Positions 1,605 to 34,600 of a stretch of 64,000 nt of DNA are shown here, one piece after another; position 1 is the stretch's first letter, and every line of letters begins with the position of its first letter. The stretch covers positions 15,798,964 through 15,862,963 of the forward strand of contig NC_089729.1 of the NCBI RefSeq assembly GCF_035083965.1, given 5' to 3'. Origin of the DNA: Branchiostoma lanceolatum (lineage: Eukaryota > Chordata > Leptocardii > Amphioxiformes > Branchiostomatidae). Position numbers and translations under genes: made by a program. The notes beneath the pieces are model-generated. The model was not told the origin of the DNA. It saw nothing but the letters and a program-made list of their open reading frames with translations, and searched no databases.

Positions 1605-1639
1605 TGGTAGTTCTGGGAAAATGACAGCGGAGACTGGTA

Positions 1640-2812: not shown

Positions 2813-2941
2813 GCTAGAGCACACAACAGAAGAGTTGTAAAGACCGCAAAACTCCCCATGGTCGGTACTCAGGAACCTCTCAGGCTTGAAGTGCAACACT
2901 GACTGCAAGCTGCTGTTTGATTGGTTGTTTGACCTCTTCAC

Positions 2942-4818
2942 CCGAACAGGTGTGGTTACACGTCACTGCGAAAAACCGTAGCCCCTCCCAGGTTGATAAT
3001 TTACATGGATCAGGGTACGTAGGGGTTTCTATGAGGAAGTATTTGCCACTGAACGAGCTCTTAATATCTGATCTTATCATTTTCGACGACAAACATCACA
3101 CCTAGTATCCGGCCGGATGCGATGTCAATCGAGCATTTAAACTAAAGGCTACGCCATTGTTATAAACTAATATGGTACACATCGAGGGACAAAAACGTTC
3201 TGAGCCCCTCGAACTTTTGCTGTCAAACACATGACCGCTTGTGACGTAATCTTTGCAAGAGTTATAGGGCTTCTGAGAAACCACTATGTCGGATGCGAGT
3301 TATGTTTTCGGCCGGTATTACCGCCCTTCGGCGTAACACAGCAGCTACGCTGTCATGCGGAGCGGCAGCAGTTAGTTATATTTCACTGAAGTAAAGTGCT
3401 ACACGTAACTTTTGCACATCTAGCTGTAAGCGTTGTTTAAAAGTATCAAATGAGGATGCCCTTACTTTCTGGTAACGAGTTTCACTCTACAACAGGTTTA
3501 GGGAAAACAGAATTTTTAATACCTCAAACACGGGTTGATAACACTGTTAATTAAAGGTATTACTATCTAACGTAAAAATGTTAGCTCAGATTCTATCTAC
3601 AGCTAGCAACGTTCTGGAATTATGAACAATCGTTTCAAGTAACGCAGCTTGAAACTTATGAAACACTGAACAAAAGCTTGATATAACAACGGGACGATTG
3701 ATAAAACCATCGGCTTTTATTATGAATTTCTATTGGAGCCATTGTGATAGCACTGCGCAACTTCCACAGAGCTTGAGTAACACTTTGCCTAGCCTAAAAC
3801 ATTTTTCATGCTTTCTTATTACCACATATCACTCTCACATACTGTTTAAATGCTAAAGTTTTCGGTGTTTTTATGTTCAAGGTTTTCCCGTTGATTTCTT
3901 CACCGTGGACTTCAAACCATCTTCTGCCCGACTACTCCCTTGTCTAAGCACTACGTACTATACATCGTACAGTATTATGATGTATTGGAGGCACATGTTA
4001 CGATTAAATACGCAAGAACCCTTAACAAGACACAATTGAAAACAAACATTGATTACATATATTAGATATCAAGAATGCCACACAAATAGTTCATTACTTA
4101 CTGACAGAGCTGTAACTAAATATCTGCTGCCAAGCGGCGCGTACAGGACAAAATTCCCTTGCCACCGTCAGACATTGTGTTAGTAGGGTTTTTTTGGCAC
4201 CTTTGTTCTGTGACGCACTCGCACAGCCAGGTCAGATATTCGACTTTTGAATGTAGGATCACGACCAAAATGGTATCATTGAAAAGGGTGATGTATACGC
4301 TTTCCAATGATACATAATGCTATACAACTGATAAAGTATCAACGTTCAACGCAGCCACGATTTATTAGATTATCAAACTTAATCGTTTCCGAAATGTTTA
4401 TGCTTAATATGTTTACAGACAATACAAAAGGAGAAGGTAATTCTACGCCTGTATAACCCGACCGCGGGGGCTTGTCACATTTCAGACATTCCATTCTTAC
4501 CTAACCGCCTTTGATGGTAGAGTAAGCGGAGCAAAAGGTCACTTTGATGTAAGGATGAAGGTATGCAGGACGAGCTCAAAGATTAAAACAGGGGAATCCC
4601 CTGACAGCTAACGCTACTTCAGCCACACGCAGGTTAGTGGAAACATCGCACAGCGAGCTGCGACTTTGGTCCTCAAATCGTCTACTACATTCACGTCTTG
4701 TAGGTAGATAAAAATAATGCCCTAATTTTGGAAGCTCTGGTAACAAATGTTGCTTTAGTTTCAGTGTACTTTTACCGTACTACAATTAAGTAGTTCGTCG
4801 AACTACTAATCGTCGTGC
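2942..4818. other. Intergenic region, no gene seen
   Basis: No ORF longer than about 65 codons has recognisable similarity. It includes one LINE 3' fragment (listed separately at about 3306-3545). The 200 bp before 4819 should hold the promoter of the caspase gene; no TATA box is evident. Confidence 0.5.
3306..3545 (-). mobile_element. LINE 3' fragment (same family as 23,150-24,985)
   Basis: The plus strand carries the diverged motif GGCCGGTATTACCGCC followed by GGCGTAACAC and GCGGCAGCAG, then a stretch matching the end of the RT reading frame (GTAACGAGTTTCACTCTAC). The same order of motifs is found at 23,157-23,345 and 43,818-44,010. This places it as a 5'-truncated minus-strand copy of that LINE family, more diverged than the other copies. 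Confidence 0.6.
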
Positions 4819-7109
4819 ATGGGAATTTGGGTGCATGTCAGAAAAGACAAGATGGCTGCCTTCGATATGAATGCTAACGCGTGTGTTCTTGTGAGCGGGT
4901 TTCCGAACTATGTTAGCAGCCGACTTTTGGAGGAGCATTTCATGACAATGGAGGATGGCCGTGGAGGAATACGACAGCTCGTCATGTTCTCAAACATAGG
5001 AACTGCACTGATAGAGTTCTGGGCACCAGAATGTAAGTAGACTTAGCTCATACCGTGCACACGAGTATCTTACTATACCATACTAAATGACGGAAAATAC
5101 GTTTATACGTTTCTATAATGTCCCCAAAATATGTCCAGAGCACACCGGGTCACCCCTGCTCTGGGTGTGACGGGTTATGTATGGTGCAAATATTTGTTAC
5201 ATATAAAAAGAATTAAAGCTACACCCTTGGAGTTTTGTTAAATGGAATGTTTCACTTTCCTAGTCGCGCTTGCCCGCCTTGTTTGCATGCCATTACTTCT
5301 TGACACACAAAACATGAAAATTTACCAGCATTACGTATTTTGCTACTATATGTTACACAAGACAGAAAACAATTATAAATCCGTTGTTTGAGAATCATGC
5401 AAAAGAACCCCTGTTAACGTGGCTACATTACAGACTATAGAGCTAACATGCATTTTCAGAACAGTCGAAAATAAGTGGCGTTGTCGAATGATTTAACAAA
5501 GTTGGAAAGCTTGGCCATTTCCTTACATTCTCTATGCGGTCATCATATTTCATAGATGCCGCTAATGTTCTCGCAAATGAACATCACATGCTGGAAGGGA
5601 CACTGCTGCAAGTGAGAGGATTGCCATCCACGTTTTGTTTAACGGGGAACGTCGAAAGCTTACAGACAAAGCTAGTTCAGCTCAACAAACTCATGTATAT
5701 ACAGTCTGAACTGAATGCAGACCTCCGGGCAGGACATAAGGCCACCCGACAGAGCCTGATCAGCAAAGAACAACAACTTCAGACTGTGGCAACAGAAAAT
5801 ATGCAGCTGAAGACGGACCTTACGCGCGAAAAACAAGCCAAGGGATGCTCTTTCAACCTGTGTCGAAGGCTGGAGGAAGAAAACGTTCATCTCATGAACC
5901 GGACGGAAGCTGATAAGAGGGAGATCGAACGGCTGAAGGAGAAGATCGCCTCCTTGTCTACCGAGCCCACCTGTACATACGACATGAGGCGCGCTCCGCG
6001 TGGGGTCGCCATCATCATCAACAACATCCACTTTGAGGACATGGGAGATCGGTGTGGGGCTGAAGGCGATACAGGTCAGGGGTTAAATCAGGATGGATGG
6101 ATGGATGGATGGATGGATGGATGGATGGATGGATGGATGGATGGATGGATGGATGGATGGATGGATGGATGAATGGATGGATGTTGGATGAATGGCGATT
6201 GGATTATTGGATGAATGGATGGATGGATGGATTTACGTTGATGAAAGTTAGACATCCAGGTAGTAAGATACGCCAAAAATAATTACTCAAGCAACTGGAT
6301 AAAGTTTTGAAACTGCATGATGGATGGATTTGTTTGAACCTTTGTTTATTCATGAGAAGCTGAGGGGATGGATGGATTGATGTATATAGATAGATAACCG
6401 TTCTTTGATATAGAAAGATAAATGCATAGATAGACGTTCCTTGATATAGATAGATAGATATGAAGTTAGGTCGATAGACCATATTAATGTTCACGTATGT
6501 ACATTTTATACAGGTCGCCTTCGAGAAACCTTTGAAAGCCTTGGTTTCACCGTCGTGACCTTCAGCGACCTTGACCATGCCAACATGGTGGCTACTATGA
6601 AGGACCAGGGCAAGGCTGACCACTCCAACTACGACTGTTTCGTCTGCTGCATCATGTCGCACGGCACCATGGGAAAGGTCTTCTCCTCCGATGACGTAGG
6701 CATAGATATCTGTGAGCTCATGAAGCCCGTCAATGCTAAGAAATGTCCATCTCTAAAAGGCAAACCGAAGCTGTTCTTCATCCAGGCTTGTCAGGGAGAG
6801 AAAAGTCAGGGGAGGGAGAGCTTTGATGGCGACCACGATGCCAAACCTGTCCCCTTCATCTGCCACGAGGCCGACTTCTTCCTGGGCCTGGCCACGGTCC
6901 CAGGCTATGTGGCTAGGCGGGACCAGGACGGGGCTCCCTATGTGCACCATTTGGCAAAAATGCTGACAGAGTTCGGCCCAACTCACGATCTGTCCACCAT
7001 CATGGCCATGGTGTGCGACAAAATGAACGAAATCAATGACGACAAGTTTGGGTGGATCTCCTCAAACCACAGTACTTTGCGCAAACAGATTATCTTCAAT
7101 ACAAAGTGA
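4819..7109 (+). CDS. Caspase with N-terminal RRM and coiled coil
   Basis: Cysteine-aspartate protease of caspase-8/10 type by its QACQG active site. Exons: 4819-5032, 5556-6074, 6514-7109 (phases 1 and 1; 442 residues). A second in-frame ATG at 4852 has a stronger start context (ACAAGATGG) and would give 431 residues. Domains in order: RRM-like fold (about 15-95) with VLVSGFP as RNP2-like and GTALIEF as RNP1-like segment, continuing across the intron to [15 protein letters not shown], closest in style to PARP10/14 RRMs; a coiled coil (about 105-205); and a caspase domain (about 215-442) with [10 protein letters not shown], catalytic His in MSHGTMG (codon 6660-6662), catalytic Cys in IQACQGE, a linker with DGDHD as a possible cleavage site, and a p10-like part with VPGYVARRD and STLRKQIIF. 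No DED, CARD or Death domain is visible. Both catalytic residues are present, so activity is expected. The RRM assignment is my inference; the caspase call is firm. Confidence 0.9.
6088..6240. repeat. (GGAT)n microsatellite
   Basis: About 20 uninterrupted GGAT units from 6091, then interrupted units to about 6230. It starts about 15 bp inside intron 2 of the caspase gene, just after the donor at 6075. The tetranucleotide keeps long frames open on both strands, giving spurious MDGW-type and HPSI-type ORFs. Confidence 0.95.
6236..6320 (+). repeat. Interspersed repeat, family with ACTCAAGCAACTGGATA core
   Basis: Contains GATGAAAGTTAGACATCCAG, then AAGATACG, then TTACTCAAGCAACTGGAT. The same blocks in the same order occur in reverse orientation at 57,230-57,345 and, rearranged as an inverted repeat, at 18,140-18,330. 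Non-coding, in intron 2 of the caspase gene. Confidence 0.7.
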
Positions 7110-8812: not shown

Positions 8813-11800
8813 CTAGTTTGACTGAACTGCACTTTCCACGGGTGGGTACTCCTGATTGGCTTCCGTGGCCGTCTGACCTACCAATCCTGTGCCACCGCTG
8901 CTATTTGAATTCCCCGTGTCCAACGGCAGCTGAGGAGAAGCTGTCGGACCAATGACTGCCTCGCTCACTGCCGGATAGCTCGGATTGTTCTCGGGCTCGC
9001 CGTTCTGAGTTTGACCAATTTGTGAGGTTACCGGATCTTCGTGGATGGGTTGTGGGTTTTGGAATGTTCTGTCAGAGCTAGCAACGGCGGCCTCAACTTC
9101 TGGGTACCCGGGGTTATCCGGGAGGTCGTTTGGCATCGGGTACTCAGGCGTAGCCTGCAGTTCATTGGGCGCGCCGGTTACGTGAAGGTCTACAGTCAGC
9201 GATTCGCTCACTACGTCATGAGGCTGACTGATCTGCTGCAGTGGAGATGACAGTTCGGTGTGTTGGTTCACTGCCTGTATCGGTACAGTTGTCTGCTCTT
9301 GGACCTGTGCCGGTGTAGGCACCGCGTTTGACACTGGCTGTACCAGTACACTTGTAGGTTGTTGCTGTGTCGGTGTAGGCAACGTGTTTGACACTGGCTG
9401 TACCGGTACACTTGTTGGCTGGCGTTCTTGCGGTGGTGTAGGTACCGTGTTGCTCCGCTGAAGGACACCACGCGGACAAGACTGACTGAGGAAGGAGGGG
9501 GTCTTGTCACCCGCTAAGTTGCCTTCGGCATCAGAGTGCAGCCTGTCGGCGCTGTCCGGGAGACAGGGGTCAGACCCAGACTCCTCCTTGGAAAGCTTCG
9601 TATTCGGCAGTCCCATGGCCAACTCGCCCTATGTCACAAACACATTGAGGTATAAACAAACTAAACACATTTTGTTTTGCACTTTACAATCTTCTCTTTA
9701 ACTACCTATTATTGATATGTTTGTGACAAAATAATAGGAGGACTAGTAGTAGCACTGGGAGTCCCATTTTACCAGTATGTGTGTAAATCTATGGTGAAAA
9801 CCATGATAAATGGTATTTGATGTTTGAAATCTGAATGATTGCAGTTAAACTAGTATTTGCGGTTCATTTTCATGTGATGACAGAAGTGTCTTACCGTTCA
9901 TTTTGTTCGAGGCTACGTCTTAAGACACTCAAATCTTTCACTGATAAAAATTTGTTACAATCTGGTTATGTTATATGAAAATAGTACAGAATTTTTGCAT
10001 CAACTTACCAGGTTGACTGTATGGGCGCGGGTTTTCTGAAAGTCTGTGTCAAAACACAAAATAGAGCATAAATCAGACGTCAAGAAAACACTGTCACGGC
10101 ATATGTCAAGACAAAAACGTATTTTGTACACAGATTTGTTCTTATCATTCTATTTTCCTGACTAAAACTAGGTAAAGATCACAACTCATACACGTATATG
10201 AACTCACGTGTTGTATTGACAGAACTCCAGAACTTTCTGTACAGAGAAGAAAACTACATCCGGGGTTCCTAGTGCGCAGGTGCGAGATACTAAAGGCGGG
10301 AAAACTAATAGATAAACATTTTAGACGTTTCTGTAAGTCTAATGTACCTTTTCTTCTTTTTGTTTCACTTGCATGGTTGAATGCTTCAACGGCGTCGTTC
10401 CTTTTCATCTGCCTGAGATGGTCCAGAAGACGGGCCGTGGGGTATCTTGGGTCACGTCTTCCCAGCATCTCAAGAAGCTTCATCGTAGGGCTGCCTTGTG
10501 CAACGCATGCGTTCATTTTCTTGGGTGTAAAGAAACGAAGGTTATGGTATGTGTAAAATAGCATGTAACCAGGAACATTAATCCACCAGGTTACATAAAT
10601 CCACCATTTTAATAAAACAGGGTGTTTGACAGATCTCTAGTGCAGCACCTCCCAGGTATGCACAGTTTATATGTACATGTATAAGTAGGAGTGCATTTTT
10701 CTGGGGGACGTTGGGTTGGAGATCTGCTTGGACGTATCTTTTCAGGGTGGCGGAATTATGTATCCTGGTGGAATTTTGTTAGTAGATGTTACAATCATAT
10801 CAGATTAAATGCATTGCATATGAAAACATTTCAAAGCCGTTTTTGGTATAAGTCCTTTCTAAGTAAGATTATATCATCTTCAATTATGAGAAAAGAAACT
10901 TACCGCTGCGAATCCTGCTTCTAAAGTTCCTTCAGTCGCCAGCCTTTCAGCCAGAGCCAGCCAGTCGTCCCGATCATCGGATGTTCTCAGGACTGGGTCC
11001 TTGTCCAGTTTCTCGGCGATGGCATGCTTCTGTTCCGGAGTCATGCTGCCGATAACGTTTACATGCGTCTGGAAGAAAGAAAGAATAAAGCAAGGTTGTA
11101 AAGGAGATGCTGATTTATATGTACAGTGTAAGGAATTCTAACGAATGAAGTACCAAATGTGTGAGCGGAGTGAGTGAATTCAGCAGTCTTGATAAGTCCT
11201 GATTTCAAAGTGAAATTTGATCTGTAGCAAAGCCGCATTGCACTACATAGCTGCTTGAAAACCTTAATTAAGCATGACAAAAGAAAAAGATTTTAAAGTT
11301 GCAAGGAAAAACGTTAAACTTAATACGTTTACAAGTTCTGTATGGTTTGAAAGTATAACGTTATAGCGATCTTGGATGATTTAGTACAAAATGTAAACAT
11401 GTAAAAAGTATGGCGACACACAAAATACCCTACCTCGTCCATTATATTCGATGTCTCCACTCTCGACACCGCCCCGTCCTTGGTGATGACGATACACGTT
11501 CTCATCAGCACATCTCCGATATTGCCAGTATTGCTAGCCAGCGTCCGAAGGTCCTGGAAATACTGGTCCGTAAATGCTGTCCGGTAGTCTTTTTCAGGAA
11601 CGTGTGAATTCTGTAGTCTGATGACGTTTCGGACGTTATCATATTTGGTGAACTTCAAGGACAGGGTTCCAGGCTGTGATTGTCCCACCTGCAAAAAGAC
11701 ATATTGTGTTTTAGTTGTCAGTTTCAACAAGGTGTTGCCAAAAAACAATTCCAAAGGGAATGCATTTGTGCAATTTTAAGAATATTTTGCAACTCAATTG

Positions 11801-12599
11801 CCCAATACTAAAGACCCGCTCCTGGGGCGTCGCCAAAATGAGATATCTACTAGTATGCAAATACAAATCATGATCATTGCCACCATCATGTATGCAGTCC
11901 AACATCATAATATTGATTCTTAGACCTGAGAACTGAAAAGATCTTTTTTTTTCTTATTTTACTTTCGGTACATTATCGCTTTCAGGGTTGCTGGATGGGA
12001 TAGAAACATAAAAAGGGAAGTTGCAATTTGATCGGCGGCTCTTTGGTGTCATAAAACTATGATACTGTGTTTGTAATTCTCTTCGATAAGAACCACTTAC
12101 AGTATTATGTATTAAATCTATGAGACATTTATTGTAAGCCCCTCAACGTACCTGGAAGAACATGTCACCGGCCTCGTAGGGTATCTCTGGAGAAACCAGG
12201 TGAACCAGTTTGTACTTTGACGTGACGAGAGGAAACCCCTGAGGACAAAGGCAAAAGATGAGTGGATATGTCAACAAAATAGCAAAACAGCAGTGAATAT
12301 CAGTAAAATTCATCTTACCAAATGTTTGTCTTGTTTGCATCAACAGGCAACTAGGAATAAGGGACAAAACACAAATGTATTCATACCCAAACCAGCAAAA
12401 GTCTTACCTGGTTTTGTAGAATTTTGAACAGTTGCAATGTTGGCTTGAAAAAACGCTCTCTGAATTCGTCGATGTTGTCATTGTACTTTGTCTGCAGTAG
12501 CTGCCTTAGACCCTCTTCTGTTCTCCTGTACTTTGCGTTGTACTCACCGAAGCAGGTTTCTATAAGAACCTTTGCCATGTCTGCCATGACTGGGTCCAT
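8813..12599 (-). CDS. Death-domain protein with repetitive Pro/Gln/Tyr C-terminal tail
   Basis: Seven exons on the minus strand: 12408-12599, 12152-12238, 11434-11688, 10904-11068, 10348-10519, 10009-10043, 8813-9628; phases close to give 573 residues. Residues 1-180 form an N-terminal region I do not recognise. About 185-285 is a Death domain: helix EQKHAIAEKL, then DDWLALAERLA, then SPTMKLLEMLG, then LLDHLRQMKRNDAVEAF, most like the Death domains of NF-kappaB p105 and related adaptors. The tail (303-573) is one long exon without globular character. It holds three ~20-residue repeats with (V/L)PTPxQ and QP(V/A)SN-like ends (about 363-424), then three YPxVxxAV motifs at Tyr477, Tyr520 and Tyr563, spaced exactly 43 residues. 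The small 35-nt exon was chosen because its acceptor at 10044-10045 restores the frame. Likely an adaptor in death or NF-kappaB-type signalling; this role is inferred. Confidence 0.78.
10578..10775. mobile_element. MITE with CCACCAGG...CCTGGTGG terminal inverted repeats (copy 1)
   Basis: About 200 bp. Left end TTAATCCACCAGGTTACATA; right end reads GGCGGAATTATGTATCCTGG, which is its imperfect reverse complement. The interior contains GTGCAGCACCTCCCAGGTAT and GGTTGGAGATCT. A second copy at 51,263-51,451 lies in the opposite orientation. Located in the intron between the two Death-domain-coding exons (10,520-10,903). No coding capacity, so a non-autonomous DNA transposon is inferred. Confidence 0.75.
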
Positions 12600-13095
12600 C
12601 TTTGGTCACTGAGGATAAAACAGGTAAATAACATGAAGCCATGTACTGACATTTGGCTGTAAGGTTGTATTCAAAGATTACTTTGTCTTTGTCTATATAT
12701 CAACATATATGAAACAGCTGTTTAAAGTTAAGGATCAATAAGGATTGGTGTAAGGGGTAAATCTTTATTGCAGGTTTTAGGTAGCTCCCTTTGTGGTTGA
12801 TAATGGACCGTCCCGTGCTGATATTGGTCGATGTCAGGAAGTCGTTGTTTTAATTCGCTTGCAGACATAACATCCGTTCTGAGCCCCATAAGCTGTCTGC
12901 TAAGCTGTCACCCGTCAAATATTTTACAGGGATAGCAGGTGACATTCGCTAGATCTAGAGACACAAACATTATACCGGGAAAGCTTTCAAAATTATCCTA
13001 ACAGATACCACTGTTTTCATTTTGTTTTACTTACAACGTTACGTCATACATTTCCAAACTTGTGCATGGATCGATTACAAGAACAGTTGAACAAG

Positions 13096-13416
13096 CAGGG
13101 CTCGAAATACTGGGTGTATATTATGCACCTTATGCACCCAAAATTGCATTTGTGCACCTACGATTCGCCCGATGCACTTTACCATGCCCCCCATTGTTAT
13201 AGGGACATCTAAGTGTCAAAAATATAACATTATGAACCTGTGTTATATTACTTTTCTATAAATGTTGAAATTATCTATAAACTTTCGGAATTCGCTCTAA
13301 AAGACAGGCAGTAAGGTTTGTAATTTTGTTTTTCTGACATTCTACTTGACATTATGATTGAATTTCCAGGTCAGGTGTACCAGTGCACCTATTCCCAAAA
13401 ATAATTTCTCGCCCTG
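13096..13416. mobile_element. MITE-like repeat with CAGGGCTCGAAAT end (copy 1)
   Basis: Begins CAGGGCTCGAAATACTGGG and ends AATTTCTCGCCCTG, an imperfect terminal inverted repeat. The interior has repeated GTGCACC words (TGCACCTTATGCACCC, TTTGTGCACCTA). Two related copies start at 16,767 and 32,797. The CAGGG terminus is typical of hAT-like elements, but I could not find a clear 8-bp target duplication, so the superfamily is left open. Confidence 0.6.
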
Positions 13417-15085
13417 CTAAGGCAAACATGAAACCCGATATGCCATCATGTGAAAACGACATGGCAGAGCTTATTCTTCTTTTGTGACACACCACCCTTT
13501 CCTTTCTCGCCCCGTCCTACATACATGGACATCACAAACAGGTGCCCCCCCCCCCCGTCTTTCCTGGGTCAGTCAGCGCAAAACCATTTCCTGTGTCTCT
13601 GAGGAGAGCATCAGCCAGACAGGACTCGACAGGTGTATAAACTTAAGTTGGGAACATCAGACAAGCATGCTTGTGATAACTAACAACATACATGGTACGG
13701 TAAACTCACAAAATAAACAAGATGTACATGAAATTCTGTTGATTACCATCATTAAACACATGTCCATGTCACTCAGTGTCTTGAAGGTTTTAAGAGAACA
13801 GTTTTCTTGTTTTTATTTGGAATTCGTAAAAACATGTAGCTATCACCTAGCTTCACATCTATTTTCTCTCTTTTTGTTTCTTTTACGGAACACTTATATT
13901 GCTATCGATATATGATATAATAGGTTTCAATCAACCATGACTTCTGAAAAGAGTGAATGTTATCTTAACCCTGTGTACCTTGTCCTTTGCAGACCTAGAC
14001 CGTTGACCGTTGTTGTATTGTGCGCTTCGGTAACCCCAACTCGTCTTAAGGGCTTTTAAAATTGTTGCGAATACAAACATGCCGTTTCCGAAGTTTGTAC
14101 CTGGTCCATGTATACAGAATGTCTGCTCTAGACATCCTCAATTTCGTGTGCTTTAGATATTACTTGGCATTTGGTTCCATGTGACATATCATCAACATTG
14201 ATAACAATGACGTGTAACTAGCTGACAATATGTCTGTCAACATGGCCAGGGTTTTGTGTCTAGTCTAAACCTTAATTTTTTTCACAGCAAGATATCAGCT
14301 GCTCTAAGATAAGAGTGCGTGTACCTATATATACACAGCAAATACTACAACTGATTATAATGCGGAATGTACTACAAGCCCTTACCTTTAAACACCGCTG
14401 ACAAAGTAACCACTCTCACAGTCAAGAAGTTACGTTTGAAACACCCTCTTTAGACGGAGCTCACTGACACGTAACTAAAACCACGCCGGTGGCTTTGAAC
14501 CTCTGAGCTAAAAAGCGGAAGTCGTGAAAGTACCGAATGATGACATCATTATGTAACCGGATAGTACATCATAACACTAACAGGACGGGCTGTGGTCGGT
14601 ACAAGTAAAGGTCCCGCCTTTATTTCGGAGAAAGGACAGTTAACGGACCCCTTGGCAACACCTTAGGTCCACGTTAGGTTAGGTTATAGATCTATTTACT
14701 CAATCCATGGCCCAATAAATTAGGGCAGGCCAAAACACAGGCGGATAAAGGCTATTAATGAGGTTATTCTCCCTCACTTTGGAACAGCCACTCTATATTT
14801 TATGATTTTAAGACACCAGTGATAAATAACGGCCGGTAAGATTATGATACACTGTATACCTGTGATGTTATAATCAACCATGGTACCAAGGTCTAGCCCT
14901 TATAATTAATGCCTAAACTAGTATAATGTTATTTATAGCAATTGCGTTTCCAAGCTTAAGCTAAGTCATATAAGGATGTGTGTCACTTCATCTAAACATG
15001 ATAAAAAAGCTAGGCAGTTGCATGTATATCTATGCTGACGTTATGTTCAAGTGGGTAGGGAAAGATCGTGACGTCCTCTACCCCT

Positions 15086-15109
15086 CCCCCCCCCCCCCCC
15101 CCCCCCCCA
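15086..15109. repeat. Poly-C tract
   Basis: More than 20 consecutive C (with a preceding TCC) interrupting otherwise unique intergenic sequence. It keeps Pro/Gly frames open on the two strands. Confidence 0.9.
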
Positions 15110-15838
15110 TTTGGTTGGGAAGATCAGCTGTCAAACTGGGCCGTGACTCTCCCACTATCTGCGAGACATACCTTAAGCCACGAACAGTCGCCTTGCCCCC
15201 GGCACGTGTAAACCCTGCCCAAACGTACCCTGCCCGACACTCTGTCAACAGTTCCACGAACGAAACCAGGGAGGCCGTTTCTGAGACGGCAGGCACGGCG
15301 ATAGTGAAACCTTTACTCCCAGTGAGTCAGCACAGTGGAATGAGGGGGCGTTCAACGTTGGAAAGTCCCACTGAAACCATTCAGTAGAAAACAATGGGGA
15401 CGGGATGGTAGCAAATTTGAGGGACAAACCAGTGTTGCTATAGGCCGATGGGGTAGAAGATACACCCACAACATGCTAATGTGTCATTGTGTAGCCGATA
15501 ACGTCAAGTCGGTATACATATACGATTTTGTATACAATGAAGAAATATTGATGCTTGACAGAGCTAAAAGTAGAATATTTTGACAGTGAAGTAAGAAAGA
15601 ACTTTCTTTTCCCCATAGAATATAGGTTAATCATTGGAATGCTTCTTTCACCCTGCAAATAAATGCCTTTATGACGTTCAATTAATGTAAGAAAAAGAAT
15701 TAAGCCCGAGTTACACCCCCATAAAACGGACTTTTGGACCGTCCAACCAGCCAACCAACAATATAAACAGTTCACAATCCTATCGACATGCCCCTTAAGT
15801 ACGACCAAGGTGAATAGAGAACAGGAACACTTAACGTC

Positions 15839-18800
15839 ATGAGCTCACCTGGCCAGGTAAATCAGGGTCTCCTGTCGGCCCTTCGCGTCTTGAGAGAAGC
15901 CCTTAAGGAGGAGAAACTTGTCCTGTTCCTTGGAGAAAAGATTTCGGCTCTTCCACAGCCAGCGACGCTCAGTGACTGGTGGACTAGCGTCCAGGTAAGT
16001 AGGGTCTGTTTATCCAGGTTTTCTAGTAAACGTGCGTTAATAGACTGATTATTATCGACAAAATGGATCAGAATGGTCACACCTAAGACAAAATCTCGTC
16101 AATGCATTTTGTACTGCATGATTTGTCTCGATAACTGTCTCTATTTTACGCTATCACGTTCCAAAGTTCAAAGCTGAACTGATATGCTACTTCCGGGTTC
16201 AAATGTGACGGTCGTTCACGGAACAGAAACGCCGACTGGCGGCAGCGACTGTATATGCACTTAGCATCCACTGTACAGCTTGTAGTCCTTGTAGATAGCA
16301 TCTATCAGTATTTGCAGAAGACATCCGAAAAGCAACAAGTGTAACAGGCATTTCTTTTTAAATCCAATCAAATGTACAGCGCTTAATGATAAGAGTAAGA
16401 TATAAAGTGCTCACGGTAAACTAAAAACAATGAAAGAAACTGTTTTGTCTTGAAATGTCTATAGGATGAAGCCGAAGTTAACCCGGGAAAATTAAAGAAA
16501 CTAGAAGAAGACTACCTACAGCGTCTTGGTGACCGACCATCCCTGTCTCATGCCGCGCTGAGGACCCTGGGAAGGTTTCCCGTCATCCTCACCACCAACA
16601 TGGACTGTCTGGTGGAGCGACTGGTCTGGGCACCGCAGGGCATTGTGGGGGAATCTCTCAGGATAGACCAGGTGAACTAGCATTGGACACTTTGTTAGAG
16701 CTTTTACGTTGTTTATGTGTTGTTTGCGCAATTGCGTCTTTCCAGCGCTTTGCAACGTTGTATAATCAGGGCTCGAAAGGCTGAGCGCATATGCGCCTTT
16801 GTGCACGTACCCAAAGTTGGAGCTGTGCACCTAGATATTTGGTTACATACTTACGTACGTAAAAGGTACAGTACTACTGTATTGTGCACCAGTAATGTGT
16901 GTACACAGCATATTCTTGTCATTCAAGTGTCAAAAAATAGTACTATGAAAAACACTGCTGTATTACTTGTTTACAAGTTTGAATTTCAGATTCCACCATT
17001 CCACCATGACATTCCACCATCCCAGATTTTTAGGTTCAAGGTGAACCAGTTCCTAAAAATGTACTTCAAGCCCGGTATAATGATTCGAAGACTTACATAA
17101 TCTATAATAGTCAACTGTAGCTATGATACCCTTTGCCCACTAAGTATCCAAGTTAGCTTTGTGTGTTTTTCTCATCTATCTATTAGTTGAACCTGCTGGC
17201 TTCAACGTGGCCGACTTTACATCATGACGTCATCGTAAAGTGTTTCGGGGATTCCAGTCTTCACGCAAGGGCAACGGTATGTAGAGAAAATTTAACGAGT
17301 TATGATTAGAGTACTGAAATTGAAAATATCGATTATCATCATATCTTCACAGAATCCCTCACAGCACAATATGAATTCTCTTGTAAAACCATCTTTGGAG
17401 CAACTTTGTCCATTCTATATATTTAACAGTCCTAGAAGTAAGATATTTGAATGCTATGTTATTTTCTTTGCTTTTTCCTGAACTGAACTGAGGCATACGC
17501 TCTACTAGAGGCTCTATAAAGCTGGTGAAGACGACGAAAATATTGCTGTTTTTATTTTCTAATCTTTGTTTCCTTTAAAGGTTGAGACCAGAAAGCAGAT
17601 GGAAGAGCTGTGCACGTCTGACGGGGAGGAAGCCAGATTCTTGGAAAAGCTGTTCAACGAGCAGTCCGTCCTGTTTCTTGGCTGCGACCCTGATGCGCCG
17701 CTGTACAGCAGCGTCCTCCAGCGGTTTGCTGAAAACTCCAAGGTGGCGACCCCTACACAATCACTAGATAAGCAGCTAGTAGCCGACTTTGTCAATAAAT
17801 GCTAATTCAAACCATAACTTAAAGCACTAAAATTTGCATGTTTAGCGAAACAAAAATCTATTCCTGTGTACGTATACGCTATAGTATTCTAGTGCCTTTT
17901 CCCTATCAAAAAAGGTAATATTCTTGGTGTGTTTTTTCTCTGGTAGACGCGACATTTTGTAGTTGTCCCGGCACAGCAGCGTGGTGTAGAGGAGCGAGGA
18001 AGCCTGTCTTTACTACATGTGGATCTGGACCTTCCGTCTCTCTCCCAACTCCTCAACCCGAGCGCCAAACCGCTGGAGTCACCCACCGAGAAGGTACTCC
18101 TTCGTAAAATAGTGTAACAACATTCAAGCTGAGCAGAACAATAGGTCCGCCAAATAGCAGTTACTCAAGCAACTGGATATGATTTTGGAAACGGTCAGAC
18201 GTTTCGAGTAGCGCTAGCATCCACTAGCTATAGTGACACTAGTACTGAGCAAGATTTGTTAGTCAGCAGTTGCTTGAGTAACTGCTATTTGACGTATCTT
18301 AATACCTCGATGTCTAACCTTCATCGATCGAAGAAACATAGGTCTCTACTATAGTATTCATACGAATTTTACGGAAGTCATACGAGTTTTACTAATAGTG
18401 AGGATCGTAGGTATTCCTTAAGGTTCGTATGAATTTCGCACAACTCGTATGTATTCCGTTAAACTCTTCTGAATTTTGTAGAATATGACTACTTGGGCAC
18501 CCCTGTACTACGACGCGATATGGTATAATTATTTGCAATTCCGCTTCTAGCTAGCTAGGTATTAAGGACGTAGGTTTGGATTTCGGTTAAGGTGGTTGGT
18601 GTTCTAAACACAGATTTACACGCTACTGGTACGGGTTGCAACAACGCCATATACTTAAGGTAAGTCCAGGTTTGTCCTGCGATATGATATCGATCGACGT
18701 TGTTGTCCTTAGTACATTTTGTATGTGTGCCCTCCTTTTACATACGACTCACATTTTTTTTTTACTACAGAGCGCACCAAAGACTAGCAAGACAGATACA

Positions 18801-21615
18801 GGCGTGAAATCGGAAGGGGACATTCCTCCTGGATGTGACGTCATCCAGTTACTCTGTCTTGGAACCGGCAAGGGCACTACAGGTACATCATCATTTCCAT
18901 TTCTATATTTCAATCCTCAATTCTAGCTTTCTGATTTATCATGAAAAGTCAAATAAAGACCAGTATAACTGGATATTTATACCGCTTGACTAGTACATAT
19001 ACAGATATAGACATAGATGTAGATACAAAATGCAAATACAGATAACCCATGTCGTGTCCCTCCCAACAGCCGTACTGACCGGAGAGCCCAGTTCCTCTAT
19101 GGTGGTCCTGCACAACTCCAGACCGGTACTGTTGGTAGACGTGGGACTGGGCGTCACACAGTCTCTTCTACACTCAATAAGTAAGGACAATTTCTACTAC
19201 TTACTCAAGAGAACAGTAGAAAAGTCCCCAGATGCTGAGATTAACCCACGTTTGCGGTGTCTCATCTTTGTGAAATTGTTGCCTTGCTGTACTAGAGCCA
19301 TCATACTTTTGAAAAAAACAACAGGCATTCCCGGTACCTTTTCTCGGTAAAACGTTGGAAACAGACACCCCACAGACGATGAAGTTTTCCTTCCCATTGT
19401 AGTAGTTTTTCACACACCAAAAGCTCAGATGAAACATATGAAACATCCGCAAGGAGGCGGGGGAGGCAGGACGATCTTCACAATTACAAGCCTCGTCCTA
19501 GTCTCGCGTTCTCGCGAGACTAGGTCATTCCGTGATCAAGATGTACAGTTGACATCGAAAATTTGGAGGTGCGTATCTCGCTACCTTTTTAAGTCATTGT
19601 TTGACGAATATTCTTGTAACTGAAACATATGAAGCAATCATCCTACTAGTATTTCATCATTTTTCTCCACAGGTCCTGATAAGTTTCCGGGCGCGATGTT
19701 CGTGACGCACAACCACAGTGACCACGCAGGGGAGCTGCCCCTGGTGCTGGGAGGTACCGCCCAGCGGCGTCTACTGGCCGGTCAGCCGAAAGTCAAACTC
19801 CTCTGCGGACCGAAGGTTCTAGAACCCCTCAAAGTCCATCGTTTGAGCGAGATGGCGTCCCAGATGCAGCCTGTAAGTTTTGGTACATGCAATCCCGACG
19901 GTTTAGGAAATCACATGTAGCTTAGATGTACACTGTCCTTGGTGCTGAATGCCTTCCACTCAATACCTTTTCCTTACTTGTATATTGTTTTGAATTCAAA
20001 GTTGGAGTGTTGAAATATACGTTACCGAAGAAACCAGTTACAATCATGATCAGTCGTTGATTACTTCTGTCCTTAGTGCTGAAAGGCTTTCCCTGTAATA
20101 TAGTTTGCTTATTTTTGGTTGAATATTGGGAAAAAAGGTTTTACTGAAGACAAACAACAAGAACGTTATAAACGCATTTGTATATGATTATTTGGAGATA
20201 TTAAGAACTATGTAATTACTGATATATTTTCATGTTAGTCTCATTGTATTTTCCCATAAATGCTTAGGATGACGCAGCCGATTGGCTGATCTGTGACCCC
20301 GAGGGTGACCCTGTGTATCTTGATGACGTCAAGCATTTCAAACTTCAAGCAGTCGAGAGTCAGCACGACTTGCCATGCTACGGTAGGGAGCTCTAGGACT
20401 TTGCATACTTTTGCTCCCAATGATAATTATCAAGAAATGTGTATTACCCAAGTCTTCCAAGTGTCCAAGAAATGTCATTTTTTTCTTTACTACATTGGAA
20501 AAACAGTCATAAACCACAGTATGAATTGAAGCACAATGAAGCAATATTTCAGGGTGAGAATGTGATTCATAATCCTGTGGTAAATAAATAGCCTCCACCA
20601 GGCCCTCTTACGGGCGTATGAATCGTAGAATTTGGCAGAAAAAGGAATAATTAGCCTGTAGAGTCAGTCCACAGTGAAGATAAACATTTCGCCCGTTTAA
20701 CGGAGCCTGCAAGTAAAACCCTGGCGTAGTTAGTCTGGTAGACTAGTAAACAAAGTCTTTATTCAAATATTTTGATATGAAAATAATTCAGACGCCTTCT
20801 CTACCCTTCCAATTCCAGGATTTCTGCTTTACTACAAGGACGAACTGATCCTCGGGTTCTCGGCTGATTCCGGCTTCACGGCGGAGTTGTACGACAAAAT
20901 CTTCGAGGCCCCGACAGTGGTCGTGGACGGTCGGACCCCATCCTCCAAATGGCATGCATCGGTAAGATGATTCTCTTGGTATACTTTTGACGACTTCGAT
21001 ATTTTTTTTTCTTTCTTTCTTTAATTCAGGGAGAGATGATGTTTTAAAATTAGCTATGGACCAGCAACGTTAAGCCAGGCATGGCAGACCATGTTTTCTG
21101 TTATATTACTTTCAATAGAGCATTGCGACTGCCAAATATGCTTATTGAAATGTTGTATAATTTCATAGGCTAAGACGAATCTATAGTCTTGAACTGAAGA
21201 AATGGTATACGTAATTTCTAACAATTCAAAAGAAACTTTTCGTATCACACCTTTCCACATATCTGCATGTCGTATCATTTTTATTTCAGTTTGACGAGAT
21301 TTCCGCCTACTTGAAAAGTCGAGAGGTGAGTTTTATTGTAAAATAGTGTGTTGTTTTTTATTCATCCATGCTTTCTTTTGTTTCAATCATGAAATTTGAC
21401 ATTAGATTCTTTATAGAATGCACCATTTGACGTGTGTGTTGTGTTATCTTTCCCCATAGAAGAGGCCCAGAGCCGTGTATGTGACAGGGTACGGTACTAC
21501 AGCGGAGTACACGGCAGAGGACAGCGCGCTCAGGCCTTTACAGAGGGGGCAGTTCTACACACTGTGGTCGGAAGAAAAGGAGTGTACCGAACTGACGAAT
21601 GAAGGAGCCCTTTAG
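15839..21615 (+). CDS. SIR2-like / metallo-beta-lactamase fusion protein
   Basis: Twelve exons: 15839-15994, 16465-16671, 17187-17276, 17581-17742, 17947-18093, 18771-18882, 19070-19180, 19673-19872, 20268-20382, 20819-20961, 21290-21325, 21460-21615; phases close to give 544 residues. Residues about 10-250 follow the SIR2_2 layout: LVLFLGEKIS (27-36, where GAGxS is usual), LTTNMDCL (94-101), VKCFGDS (138-144, where KLHGD is usual) and VLFLGCDPD (181-189). Both the glycine-rich NAD loop and the catalytic His are therefore altered. After a Ser/Lys-rich linker (about 250-272) comes an MBL fold: LLCLGTGKGTT (281-291), a strand LLVDVG, the metal motif THNHSDH (340-346), His428 (ESQHD), Asp450 (GFSADSG) and His479 (KWHAS). 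The final strand reads VTGYGT where MBL enzymes usually have a His. A hydrolase with a pseudo-SIR2 sensor or scaffold is my inference. Substrate unknown. Confidence 0.85.
16767..17075. mobile_element. MITE-like repeat with CAGGGCTCGAAA end (copy 2)
   Basis: Starts CAGGGCTCGAAAGGCTGAG and contains GGAGCTGTGCACCTAGATAT, shared with the copy at 32,797. The right end is diverged (around TTCAAGCCCGG). It sits in intron 2 of the SIR2-MBL gene. Confidence 0.55.
18149..18290. repeat. Foldback repeat with ~26-bp inverted arms
   Basis: The left arm 18152-18174 (AAATAGCAGTTACTCAAGCA plus ACT) is the exact reverse complement of 18268-18290, and pairing extends outward with one mismatch. The arms flank about 93 bp. 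The outer flanks continue as the interspersed family also found at 6236 and 57,237. Located in intron 5 of the SIR2-MBL gene. Confidence 0.85.
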
Positions 21616-22012
21616 AAAGTGTGCTTATGTTTTTTCTCCTGCCTTATCTAAGAGTTGGCGATTCTGATTGGTTACGAACAGGGGAAAAACATGTATCTGA
21701 ATTTTCTATTTGGAATTATTTGATTTTTTTTCCACAAAGTTAACAATTATAAGAAAGTAGACTTGTACTATATACTACTAAGATTGACTCTCGATACTTA
21801 ATGCCTTGCAGAGGCATATTGGTCTTGAATCTTGATAAACCATTAGCAAGTACAATAGAACACTCTAATGTATTGCAAACCTAACGGGCGAAAACATGCT
21901 CATAATGTAGAAGAATACATAGAAAGGAAAGGGGAAATTTGTTAGAGGATATTATAGCCAAGGTACATACATATGTAACGTTATAGGCAATGATAAGTAA
22001 AATACACCATAC

Positions 22013-22300
22013 TTGATAGTACCAGTTCATACGCGCCAAACGCGACACTCAAATCAAAATTCATATAAGAGTCTACCATTTCACAAAGACTGTTATAGAT
22101 ACTCTTATTACCCTCGCACTGTGAGAGACTGGAATTCATTGCCTCAAGAAGTCACGGGGATAGCTGACCCTCCCAAGTTCAGGGAGGCGGTGCTCCTGCA
22201 CCTCAGAGGACAATAAAAGCGCAGCGCACTCCCCTGGGCGCTTTTCCCCAACAAGAGGGGTGTTGCCCAGTACCAAATCAAGATCAAGATCAAGATACTC
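22013..22300 (+). mobile_element. LINE 3' end with C-terminal RT piece and (AAGATC)n tail
   Basis: A short plus-strand reading frame ends at 22216 with YYPRTVRDWNSLPQEV, a C-terminal motif of Jockey/CR1-type non-LTR reverse transcriptases. It is followed by a GC-rich 3' UTR (GCGCAGCGCACTCCCC...) and a tandem tail ATCAAGATCAAGATCAAGAT near 22,275-22,295, a common way for these elements to end. Strongly 5'-truncated. Confidence 0.75.
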
Positions 22301-22769
22301 GCTCTGAAAATTATTTCAAACTACCAACAGCGCCATATTTTTGGAAAGAATCGTCTACATTCGGTAGCTTGAAATAGGATAAGCCGTGTGGTAAATTTGG
22401 CCATGCTTTATTACAAAACATTGTGCAATACAGCAAGTACATGTATTTTTCCATACATATATACGCGTTGCTTGATGCTGCCTTCATTCGTGATATTGTA
22501 TATTATTCAAAATATGTCCCAGCAGATTTAGCTTCCAGTGTTGAACACAATTATCGTATCAATCTTTTTTTTTTTTTGCTTCGTTCTCCAAACGATTGAG
22601 GTAATAAACTAAAATAAACACACGGCCACGTATCTTCATTGTAATATTGTCGTCCAGAAATGCTGCCGTAAGGGGTGGCACGAACATTCATATATGAACA
22701 CCATATATCCAAACTTTCCTTTCTTTCTACCTTAAACAAGAATCATAAGCAAGGAAATTACCTTTCAAA

Positions 22770-23150
22770 CATTAATTAAGGGCCTTGACGTACGTAGGGC
22801 AATCACAAAACTCAGAATTGGCTGTCATAAATGAAGTATAGAAACGGGGAGATTTCAAAAACTTCCTATCAACCAGAGGGTTTGCCCATTTTGCCCAGAG
22901 GTAGTTGAAGACGAATATCACTTTTTGATTGTATGTCCCAAATATTTCGATATACGTAATTCACTATACTCAATGTTATCGTCGGATTTACCAGGATTTA
23001 TCTCAATGGACTTGAACAGAAAATTTCTCCAATTATTGTAAAATCCCATTGTCATTCCATACTACTTCACCATATTGTATAAGATAGACTACTACATAAT
23101 ATTGTATCAGATAGATTGGTTAGCCTAATAGAATCTGTCTGTATCTGTAT
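22770..23150 (+). mobile_element. LINE 3' fragment with zinc-knuckle (zf-RVT) remnant
   Basis: In the plus frame around 22,850-23,037 the sequence reads RVCPFCPEVVEDEYHFLIVC followed by PKYFDIR, ending with a stop at 23,037. The C-x2-C...H...C pattern is the zinc-knuckle found at the C-terminus of several non-LTR RTs. The frame upstream is broken. The piece ends close to the tail of an oppositely oriented LINE at 23,150. Confidence 0.7.
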
Positions 23151-28600: not shown

Positions 28601-31600
28601 TTTCAGAAGGAATATGAGTTTCTCTGGATTTCTTATTCTAGAAATGCTTCACACATGGACAGGTCATGATTTGTTGATCAAAAATGTTTTCACAGTTAGA
28701 AATTAAAGTTCACTTGTAGTTCAAGCAGTCCTTGAGTTAGGCTCAGTCTTTTATGTTTATGTTCAGTAGCCTTTAACAGTGCAATCAATGTTGTCAACAA
28801 AGACTTGAAAATGAAAAAAGAATATTTGCTGAGGACAAATATAACCCTGTGGGACTGAATAGGACTGAATAGGTATGTTTGTTTTGGTGTCTCAGGACTT
28901 TTGGCTAAGCCGGCTATAGCAGCCATTTTTTTGCAACACCGACAGTTGATTGTCAAAGTTAATTGGTCAAGTCGCCTTGACATTTTGTCCCTCATTCATC
29001 CCTATACTGTATGTGGAAGTCTTAGGCTAGACTTGAATTTGAAAGGGGCACCATCTGTGGGTGTTTTGTACACATCAATGGTTCAGGGGATCTACTGTTT
29101 TACCTTAAGACAACTTAAGTTAAGACTAAGAGCCTCTTGGGTGTCTTATTTCTGTAAAAATCAATATCCGGTAAAAAGGAAAGTGGTGTGTGTATAAGGT
29201 GGCAGTGTGATCTCTTTGGTCACCTAGCAACTAATCCATACTGGTAGTCTGAAGTAGTAGACTCTTCATCAGCCAATGAGGCAAATGTTTGACATATTCT
29301 AAGAGTGTCTAGGTCTAGCTTTAAGTGCATAGAGACCTTACATATGTGCACATGTACTGTACTCTCAAATTGTGTTAACCCTCTATCAACTGAGATAGCC
29401 TTTTCGTACCAAGTTTGTCATGGTGATGGGTTAAGTAGAAGGGGGAAGGTTAACTTAGCACTATCGTAAGGTACATATAGTAATTTTAGTACTCGACATA
29501 AGCTTTGAAACAGTTGGATTGTCATACATTAGTGACATTAGCTTTGACTTAGTTTGAGAGTTTTAAACTGCACATAGATTTGACACTAAAGCACTTTCCT
29601 TTCCTTCCTTGGTTGCATGTCAGATTCTACAAAAAACGCAGCAGCTAACACTGATAATGGGAGTGGAGAGGCAGGCAAGGCATCAGATGGCACCGCTAAG
29701 AAAGGTCTGAAGCAATTCTTAGGCCTCTTAATTTAGCCCTTCTTGCTTTTAAACTGATGTAAACAGTAGAGGCTATACACAAAAATGCAGAATTCTAGCT
29801 ATAGTGGTAAGTAGTGGGCTGGCATATATCTTAAGTTTGCTTTCCTAATAGCTCTTTCAAATAATTACCTCTGAAATTCACTTTCATAACTTGTCGTCAT
29901 TTGCTGTTCTTGAATTAGTTTAGACTTAGAATTTATCTGACAGAATATTGCTTAGAATTAGAGTCATCTGCCTGTTGTAATTTACACTTCATCAATAGAA
30001 CAGTCTGTAGACATAACATATTTGTGACCTGATATGCTTAACTGTGAACTCGAGTCTTTTTGATTTCTGACCAAATAACTGAAGACGTCACCCATTTCTT
30101 TAAAGTTGCAGTATTATTAGTATAGCGTAGATACTGGTAGTAAAAAATGTGGCAACTTGACCTTGTTGTAAGAGTTTTTGACTTAGAATCTAAAGGTTCT
30201 GGGTTCAAAACCCAGCAGGACACAATATTCTGCCCTTGGGAAAGGCAATTATTTACTCACTCGAGCCAGGTGACTTAAAGTCGCAGGTTTCGTGTTTGAG
30301 GAGAGCCACACCTTGATCACATTAAAGAACCCTCCACACATATATAGAAAAAAGTAGGGTTCCTTCCCGGTGTGAGTGGATTAAACCTACATGTATCCGT
30401 CTGGACTGTACAGCTTGTTAGCCTGGGTGTCATTCGATTCGATTATGTTTTTACTACCGGGGCTCCTACACTCGCTACCCTAAATGCCATTCGATTACTA
30501 CCGGGGCTCCTACACTCGCTACCCTGAATGCCATTCGATTACTTCTGGGGCTCTGCTACACTCACTACCATGCTCTAGGAGCCCTGGTAGTAATCTGATG
30601 TCACCCAGGCTAGCAGCTTGTACCTATAAATGTACAAAACTGGTGTGTTACGTCCAGTTATGTGGAACACACAAAACACAATGACATTTAGAAAACAAAA
30701 GTTTGATAGTGCATTTTTAGCTATTTCATGCAAGTGTCACCACCGAAAATTTGGTCTGAAAATCCAGCCGTAGTCCTGGCCCTGAATTCTGATATATAGT
30801 TGTGTGCATGTATAGCTGTATGCAAGGCATCACAAAAGTAACAAATTTAGAAACTGTATTTTTCTTGCATGATCATTTAGGTTGAAGGGTGGCCTGCTCC
30901 AAATTAAAATCCTTGGAACCATGTTCCTTATCTCTAATTAAATGACCTTCTTGCCTATGGCATTGCCTGTCCTTGCCCTTTTTTGTGGAGTACCATATGT
31001 GCACAGTGCCATTTTAATTAACCAATCTACAAAGCCAAAGTTTGGGTCATGTACTGTAAATCATGACACTTTCGAGGTAGATTTATTTTTGAAGTTTTTG
31101 CAGTGGCCTTTCTATTATGAATTCATGACACCCCAAACATGTCTGTCTTGTAGGACTACTGTCATACAGAGTTGTTTCAACCACGAATTTAAGCGAAAGC
31201 CTTCTTTTTCCTCCTACTGCGAAGTAGCACCACCGCAAAAGTACCATAAAGGAATTTACAGAAAGTCCATTCTCCCGTAACGTGACATATTCTAACTGCA
31301 GTTCATGTTCTGTTGCAGAGGGGGCATCAGTGGTATTCAAGCTGTACTGCCTAGCAGTGCTGACTGTCATGGCGGCATCGTACACGGTACTGATGCGCTA
31401 CACCAGGACAGTCGAAGGCGTACGGTACTACTCCACCACCACCGTTTTCGTCACGGAGTGCGCCAAGATGTTTTTCACGCTGTGCATCCTCCTCAAAGAA
31501 CACAAGGGCAGTATACGAAAAGTGTCGCAGGAACTGAAGGGGAACATCGTGGGGAAACCCATGGAGATGTTGAAGATGAGCGTACCGTCCATTGTTTACG

Positions 31601-34600
31601 CCATCCAGAACAACATGACCTTCATCGGTCTCAGTAACCTGGACGCAGCAACGTACCAGGTACGTGCTTCTAGTACTGGGGACAAGATACTGTGAAGTCT
31701 AGTATGAAAATGAAAGACCTTTAAACAGAGTATGTATTGGAGGCTATAGATATAATGACATGTTAAGCTTGAACCAACACTTTAATACAGACCAACTTCA
31801 AGGCAACGACTGTTCGCTTGCAAAATATTTTTTTTCCGTTATTGAGTTGGGTGCCATGTTTTATGACTAACTTTCTTAGAGCGTTATTTTAATCTTCTAC
31901 CTGCGATGAGGGCCCATCTAATTTGTACCGCTAGTTGTAGCTGATGGTTAAAATGTTGACTACCAAGAAATATAGAATAAGAAAGTGGTTACTAATTCTC
32001 TAAAGTCTAATGTATAATGTATATTGATTCAATTGTCAAAACCACCAAATGCAATCAAGGCAGTTAAGCTGGTTTCGGATGCACACAAAATAAGCTATCC
32101 TGCTTGTACATTAGTATATCATCAGATGAGTACATTGTGATAAACTTTATTCCCCCTCTTAAACCATTTTCCCAGGTGACGTACCAGATGAAGATCCCGT
32201 GCACAGCGCTGTTGTCCGTGATGATGTTGGGACGCAGTCTGAGCAGTATGCAGTGGATTGCTGTTTTCGTTCTGACAGGCGGTGTCATTCTAGTGCAGGT
32301 ACGCTAGTCTAATAGTCTGTGAACACAAACCCTGCTGTTCGGGGCTTTTATGGCCCCTCCCCGCAGATATTGGCGCTGAGGCCAGATGTTTGGCCGGCCA
32401 CTAGGCGTGATTCAATCAGGCTACTATACTAGCAAGCAACTTTCCTTTACTTGGTTAACAAAGTTTTAAAATGTCACGGTTAACAAAGTTCTTTGCATAC
32501 ATCCTTTCTCTCTCTCTGTCAGTTAGTGAAGAAGACTAGGACTTAACTGCACATGGTACAATCCAGGTACAAATCAAATAACTAAGAGATTATTACCTGC
32601 CAATGTTTCGGTAGTCCTTTTGTTACCTTCCTCAGAACGCTAATGACTAGTTCTACTTTCCAAAGCTAGGTGGCGCTCCTGTGAGAAGAATGTGATCCCA
32701 AATGTGACTCAGCTTGTATTCCCTCTCATCATGGTTCATGACTAGAGTAGATTTTCTGATCCATATACTAGTAGCTATAGCCTCCTCCATGCAATGCAGG
32801 GCTCGAAATAGTGGGTGCATGTGCACCTGTGTGCACCCAAAATTGGAGCTGTGCACCTAATTTTTGACTAATTTTTGACCAGCGCACCTAGATATTTTTG
32901 TAGGCAATCAATAGGCCTTTACAAGATGAAGGTACTATTGTACACTAGTTTACAGAATATTCTTGAAATGTAAGTATCAGAAAAAGCAGTATAATTTGTA
33001 ACAGTTGTACTTAATTTGATATATTACTTGTTTGAAATTTTGAAGTTAGCTATAGAATTACTGATTGAAGGCTGTTAAACTTTGTTAATTATGTTTTGCT
33101 GGTATTCAACTTTTTTTTGCACCTATTTCCAAAAATGAATTTTGAGCTCTTGTCCGAATGTCCTCTATATGATCTCAGTCTTTAACATTGGCCTCATCCC
33201 AGTCTATAACACTGAGGTGTTTCTAGTAATGTGGTTTAGAATTTAGTAGATCTGTCACAGCCGATTTGCTTAATCACATTTTGTTTCTGTTTCAGGGTAT
33301 TGGAGGAGAAGCAGTGAGCCATACCACAGGAACTGAGGGAAACTATGTCGTGGGCCTGACTGCCCTGACTATTGCCGTCTTCTGCTCAGGATTTGCAGGT
33401 TCGTTAAGTTTGGAAAAATTTTCTTATTTGTAGAATCTGATTGTTCTCTGCCATCATCCTTTACAATTTTGTTTAGAAAGAGCTTGTGTAGGAGGGGGAA
33501 ATGTTGTTACATATATGTATAATAGGGGTGACAGTGATGACTTGCCATTCTTAAGCCCTGCATAGCTAACTCCAGCCATTTTTTAAAATTATTTCTCTGT
33601 CCAGGTGTTTACTTTGAGAAACTGCTGAAGGGCTCGGACACCTCGCTGTGGGTGCGGAACGTCCAGATGTACTCCTGGGGCATGCTCAGTGCCTTCTTGG
33701 GCGTGGTGATGCACGACTGGCAGAACGTCAGGGAGAACGGCTTCTTATATGGCTACACGCCCCTCGTGTGGCTGGTCGTATGTAAGTACGATACTGCAAG
33801 GCAGCGGTAGTGGCCTCTATCTGTTTGTTGTAGTGAAGTACAGTATAGAACCATGAAGAGCTTCAAGCAGTTGCACTTTAATGCCGTGCTATGTCTTGCT
33901 GTTACCTAAAAGTACTAGACAGTGGTAGAACGTCAGGGAGAACAGCTTCTTATACGGCTACACGCCCCTCGTGTGGCTGGTCGTATGTAAGTATGATACT
34001 GCAAGGCAGCGGTAGTGGCCTCTATCTGTCTGTTGTAGTGAAGTGCAGTATAAGACCATGAAAAGCTTCAAGCAGTTGTACTGTTATTCTTTATCTTGCT
34101 GTTGCCTCAAAAATACAAGGAAGTGGTGATGGCCTCTATACATCTGTTGTAATGAAGTACAGTTTAACCCCACAAATGGCATCACAGCAGTTATACAACT
34201 TTTTTTTGGCGACACCTCAGGGGTGGAGGCATTGTTGTTACCACAACAGTAGTTTGCACACATCTGTTGTTAGTGAACTATAGTAATGTCATAACACCAT
34301 GATTGTGTCACAGCAGTTGTATGTATCTAAAATCTATACTTTGCTGTTTCCCAACAGTGCTAGGCAGCGGTGGTGGCATCTACACATCCATTGTAGTGAA
34401 GTACACTGACAACATCATGAAAGGCTTTGCGGCAGCTGCCGCTATTGTGTTGTCCACCATCGCTTCTATCATGTTCATGGGTCTGGTGGTCGGATGGATG
34501 TTCGTAATGGGCGCAAGTCTCGTCATTGCCGCCATCTTCCTGTACGGCCTTCCCAAAACCAACACGGAAAAACTCCCCGTTAGGAAAAGCGGGACAGCAC

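Follow-up and report, generated by a model that had tools for sequence, protein, structure and literature searches.

Does a single animal gene join a SIR2_2 domain to a metallo-β-lactamase (MBL) domain, and what could the product of such a gene do? This question is raised by a locus of Branchiostoma lanceolatum contained in a 64,000-nucleotide stretch of contig NC_089729.1 (assembly GCF_035083965.1, positions 15,798,964 to 15,862,963), referred to here as the window. An earlier note on this DNA had proposed a gene of 12 exons at window positions 15839-21615 on the plus strand, encoding 544 residues with a SIR2-like half followed by an MBL half. Our findings agree with that model: the 12 exons join in frame to give 544 codons and a stop, all 11 introns are of the GT-AG type, and both halves match domain profiles. 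The GC content is 55% in the exons versus 37% in the introns, the GC content by codon position over the whole coding sequence (0.62/0.42/0.63) represents a coding-like pattern, and the start ATG sits 21 bases into a stop-to-stop frame (15818..16048). We consider it probable that the two halves of this SIR2-MBL protein represent a true fusion.

The SIR2 half

In a hidden Markov model search of the spliced protein, residues 92-216 matched Pfam SIR2_2 (PF13289) with an E-value of 1.2e-10 and 42.1 bits, well above the gathering score of 24.5, which upholds the domain assignment made earlier. The match to the FAM118B chain in the PDB was weak (E 0.009). Comparison with hhalign against 26 SIR2 proteins (alignment A3, comprising 24 genome loci, one plasmid and one viral contig) yielded a probability of 96.8, a value that is not independent, as these relatives were collected with the query; a crossed hhalign control gave 0.15.

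A closer examination of the active site reveals that the two substitutions described in the earlier note, GEKIS for GAGxS and KCFGD for KLHGD, lie at residues 32-36 and 139-143, respectively. The GxG motif is replaced by GEK, whereas GxGxS is present in 26 of the 26 relatives, and the catalytic His of K-x-H-G-D is Phe141, a position at which 25 of the 26 carry His. The catalytic Asn of TTNxD, invariant in all 26, is retained as Asn97. The SIR2_2 match begins at residue 92 and GEKIS is N-terminal of the matched span; its placement comes from an additional FAM118B alignment segment, a weak one of 1.7 bits. According to the excerpt of PMC12700824, the active-site residues of FAM118B are H206, D255, N163 and W65. 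With FAM118B numbering that rests on an inferred 20-residue construct offset, Phe141 corresponds to H206, Asp189 to D255 and Asn97 to N163, while Trp47 aligns with W65 only within the 1.7-bit segment. No alternative exon carrying GxGxS (positions 9700-17186) or KxHG (16672-17580) was detected in a plus-strand pattern scan that had no positive control.

These residues bear on the possibility that the protein is a bifunctional enzyme of nicotinamide adenine dinucleotide (NAD), in which the SIR2 half would still cleave NAD by means of a rearranged site, leaving the product to be processed by the MBL half. The retention of Asn97 and Asp189 is consistent with it, and the Asn matters, since NAD loss in cells largely ceased when N163 of FAM118B and N148 of FAM118A were both changed, as stated in the available part of PMC12700824. 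However, His has become Phe and GxG has become GEK at positions where the relatives keep these residues so consistently, and we regard this reading as improbable.

The nearest described animal proteins are FAM118A and FAM118B (SIRal), vertebrate SIR2_2 proteins that, in the accessible text of PMC12700824, form filaments and process NAD, with filament formation apparently required for their activity; the same text ties SIR2_2 proteins to vertebrate immunity. The SIR2-MBL protein resembles them in having an animal SIR2_2 domain in which the active-site Asn and Asp align, and the Trp weakly. It differs in having neither the catalytic His nor GxG, in bearing an MBL domain, and in its 29% identity (38 of 130 locally aligned residues), which places it outside a FAM118 clade set at 41% identity or more (PMC12700824, in part).

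Bacterial SIR2_2 proteins (such as those at L001, L004 and L021-L050) share the LTTNxD and K-x-x-G-D motifs and a later G-C/G-W strand, but the 26 aligned keep GxGxS and all but one of them the His, and the two annotated as plasmid-borne measure 578 and 609 residues. The earlier note had presented the fold as best known from bacterial anti-phage effectors; the vertebrate FAM118A/B indicate that the fold is not exclusively bacterial. A further parallel is the SAMD9 family of animal proteins, which have a variant Sir2 domain and are linked to the antivirus response; in the excerpt of PMC5445408 their partner domains are others, and MBL is not mentioned.

The MBL half

Residues 280-510, approximately, constitute an MBL domain such as those found in RNase Z and class II phosphodiesterases. 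The expected Lactamase_B assignment stood in part: the Pfam score, 22.4 bits, falls just short of the Lactamase_B (22.7) and Lactamase_B_2 (27) cut-offs, but matches to NCBIfam and to PDB chains were clear. The top NCBIfam matches were a cyclic nucleotide-degrading phosphodiesterase (E 2e-8) and RNase Z (E 5.8e-8), both far under their curated cut-offs (33.9 of 400 bits for NF041851 and 26 of 292.95 bits for TIGR02651). Among PDB chains, RNase Z ranked first (1y44/4gcw, E 1.9e-7), followed by matches to PNGM-1, a putative metal-dependent hydrolase and, in eighth place, Apyc1, with E-values of about 0.001-0.0023. A profile of 15 relatives (alignment A4; phage, archaeal and viral-contig proteins) scored 66 bits across residues 280-510, a score that is not independent because these relatives were gathered with this sequence; the same applies to the hhalign probability of 99.0 obtained against them.

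The metal-binding residues previously reported were found where they had been placed, with HNHSDH at residues 341-346, His428, Asp450 and His479 kept, and Gly503 in the position of the last His. A six-row alignment compares the SIR2-MBL protein with one archaeal and four phage proteins; of ten MBL sites, nine are invariant in it (Asp315, His341, His343, Asp345, His346, His428, Asp450, Asp470 and His479). The tenth, the last metal His, is Gly503 here and His in 15 of 15 relatives. The losses of the SIR2 motif residues and of this His are visible in the codons of the window themselves. No exon restoring the last His was found at 21326-23000, again by a plus-strand pattern scan with no positive control.

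Given the closeness to RNase Z, could the protein be an animal tRNase Z relative acting in RNA 3' processing? The leading metal motifs are held in common, but the last His is missing and the gap between the motif III His and the motif IV Asp is 22 residues here versus 60 in L058, a single bacterial comparison protein called RNase Z-like from its motifs. The stretch absent between motifs III and IV would correspond to the transfer RNA (tRNA)-binding exosite, assuming, as we infer, that the arm lies between these motifs; in E. coli RNase Z, the exosite arm is formed by residues 153-203 (PMC12663964, in the part available). We judge such a role highly improbable.

Apyc1 proteins, the anti-Pycsar class II phosphodiesterases of phages, offer a second comparison. 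The passages of PMC9117128 at hand name residues H64, H66, H69, E74 and Y112, with E74 and Y112 being catalytic. We took four phage relatives as Apyc1 or its kin because these five residues fall on the same letters in the phage Goe3 protein, the identity of the two numberings being deduced from the matching H64/H66/H69. The profile of the relatives aligns over residues 280-510, and the shared sites are D-x-G, HxHxDH, the motif IV Asp, another Asp and the HAS His. The differences are the 24-26% identity to the four phage proteins, Pro351 and Gln392 at the equivalents of E74 and Y112 in the Goe3 alignment, and Gly503 for the last His. Since the MBL half lies nearest to RNase Z and the class II phosphodiesterases, its substrate is likely to be a phosphodiester or a cyclic nucleotide; the domain may function in the manner of a class II phosphodiesterase, while falling outside both the RNase Z and Apyc1 families.

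One gene or two

The point at which the two halves meet, the junction of exons 5 and 6, invites the alternative that two adjacent genes were misjoined: the first, with SIR2, would end near 18117, and the second, with MBL, would begin 5' of exon 6. Several observations weigh against a fusion. The donor of exon 5 is the weakest of the 11, at the 89th percentile of all GT dinucleotides in the window by an approximate score built on donor frequencies; the codon-position pattern is not seen in exon 6; and the SIR2-MBL architecture was found in no relative among the plasmid, phage, viral-contig and prokaryotic sequences searched. In-frame ATGs at 18684 and 18723, within an open frame that continues into exon 6, would also suit a separate MBL gene, but the stretch from 18684 is mostly polypyrimidine tract. 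On the side of a single gene, the acceptor of exon 6 is good by pyrimidine content (98.6th percentile), the phases agree across the junction, and the residues on either side are linker-like. Intron 5 (677 bases) contains neither AATAAA nor ATTAAA, although we roughly estimate that some 25% of stretches like it would contain neither signal by chance. Two misjoined genes are, in our assessment, unlikely.

The search for homologues gave relatives of each half separately. Around each locus, 0.3 to 3 kb of flanking sequence was covered, in some cases cut short by a contig end: none of the 33 SIR2 loci has an MBL domain of this kind in the gene or its flanks, and none of the 17 MBL loci has a SIR2 domain. 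One of the SIR2 loci, L027, contains a second SIR2-like frame that adjoins the first on the opposite strand (140-1957, minus strand). Among 297 bacterial genomes of one phylum, in which at most four candidates were scored per genome, 29 gave matches and none of 30 places spans both halves. With tblastn, plasmids and phages matched one half at a time, and 80% cover was reached in 0 of 20 plasmid records and 0 of 17 phage records. The spliced protein was unmatched among viral contigs, for which only six 8-residue patterns were used, and PADLOC returned two weak matches (E 0.028 and 0.064). No report of a SIR2-MBL fusion was found in the available portions of the open-licence literature; the passages of PMC8195603 name SIR2 once and lactamase not at all.

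Possible function of the fusion

The earlier note suggested a sensor or scaffold SIR2 fold coupled to a working or altered hydrolase. The presence of two domains, the absence of the SIR2 residues GxG and His, and the changed last metal ligand agree with that outline, and the hydrolase can be placed nearest to RNase Z and the class II phosphodiesterases. The reading that we prefer, with limited confidence, is that the SIR2 half would be a pseudo-NADase serving as a module for ligand binding or assembly, attached to an MBL domain that resembles a nucleotide phosphodiesterase and is presumably weakened. For an assembly step, FAM118B, ThsA and Avs5, which form filaments according to the excerpt of PMC12700824, offer a precedent.

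Some points tell against this reading. Without its last metal His, the MBL half could be inactive, and the motif III His column is not invariant in the 15-row alignment, which is why the support for that residue comes from the six-row one. A rival view is that both halves are catalytically dead and that the protein acts as a scaffold or decoy, whose ligands might be nucleotides or derived from NAD. The loss of the SIR2 GxG and His, the loss of an MBL His that is invariant in the relatives, and the failure of the limited pattern scan around the gene to find a motif-restoring exon are all consistent with a double pseudoenzyme; that nine MBL sites of ten are intact would be difficult to account for unless metal chemistry had been under selection. 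A double pseudoenzyme is possible, if somewhat doubtful.

The pseudo-NADase reading could be extended to an animal immune regulator, in which the SIR2 half would sense NAD or an NAD-derived messenger, assemble, and thereby switch a phosphodiesterase similar to Apyc1, which would remove a nucleotide second messenger. An immune role is drawn by analogy, which also counts against it, and we consider this extension rather unlikely. If true, a fold of bacterial effectors would share one host protein with a counter-defence fold of the phage type. More generally, an animal SIR2_2 domain beyond the FAM118 clade combined with a nucleotide phosphodiesterase fold would hint at NAD sensing coupled to messenger breakdown in animals, and the fusion represents one compact protein in which such coupling could be tested.

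Gene structure and neighbouring features

The exons and the positions of the motif codons are collected in Table 1. A tblastn search of the window (E up to 1) returned 12 matches, all of them exons of the SIR2-MBL gene, with no second copy, and no tRNAs or Rfam matches at gathering score were found in the window.

Table 1. Exons of the SIR2-MBL gene in window coordinates, with the residues and motifs encoded by each.
Feature	Position	Strand	Residues	Content
Exon 1	15839..15994	+	1-52	SIR2 N-terminus; GEKIS at 15932-15946; Trp47
Exon 2	16465..16671	+	53-121	SIR2 TTNMD codons 16591-16605; Asn97 retained
Exon 3	17187..17276	+	122-151	KCFGD 17238-17252, versus KLHGD in SIR2 relatives
Exon 4	17581..17742	+	152-205	FLGCDPD; Asp189 at 17692-17694
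Exon 5	17947..18093	+	206-254	SIR2 half ends, linker begins; weak donor AAG/GTACTC
Exon 6	18771..18882	+	255-292	Linker SAPKTSKTDTGVKSEGD, then first MBL strand (LLCLGTGKG)
Exon 7	19070..19180	+	292-329	MBL strand; Asp315 at 19138-19140
Exon 8	19673..19872	+	329-395	Metal motif HNHSDH at 19708-19725
Exon 9	20268..20382	+	396-434	His428 at 20364-20366
Exon 10	20819..20961	+	434-481	Asp450 at 20866-20868; Asp470 at 20926-20928; His479 at 20953-20955
Exon 11	21290..21325	+	482-493	
Exon 12	21460..21615	+	494-544 and stop	Gly503 at 21487-21489, last metal His in relatives

The first AATAAA 3' of the gene is at 22212, at the end of an open frame (22001-22216, plus strand) that reads RDWNSLPQEV and that we take to resemble the end of a long interspersed nuclear element (LINE) reverse transcriptase. 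About 8.7 kb 5' of the SIR2-MBL gene, on the same strand, a caspase domain (Peptidase_C14, E 1.5e-39) with readable SHG and QACQG motifs occupies 6450-7106; it is preceded by an open reading frame at 5492-6169 with weak matches only, one of them to a coiled-coil family (E 0.064). On the minus strand, positions 8816-9628 hold a GC-rich open frame of 271 residues, many of them Pro, Thr and Gln; it contains a 60-base tandem repeat and matches no Pfam family at E 0.1. A GIY-YIG domain (2294-2962, minus strand, E 4.4e-7) lies within 1-2962, where long open reading frames have no convincing Pfam match; the minus-strand translations of this region resemble Penelope-like retroelements, perhaps in two tandem copies. 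Further downstream, an exon of a nucleotide-sugar transporter is located at 31228-31692 on the plus strand (E 3.4e-35).
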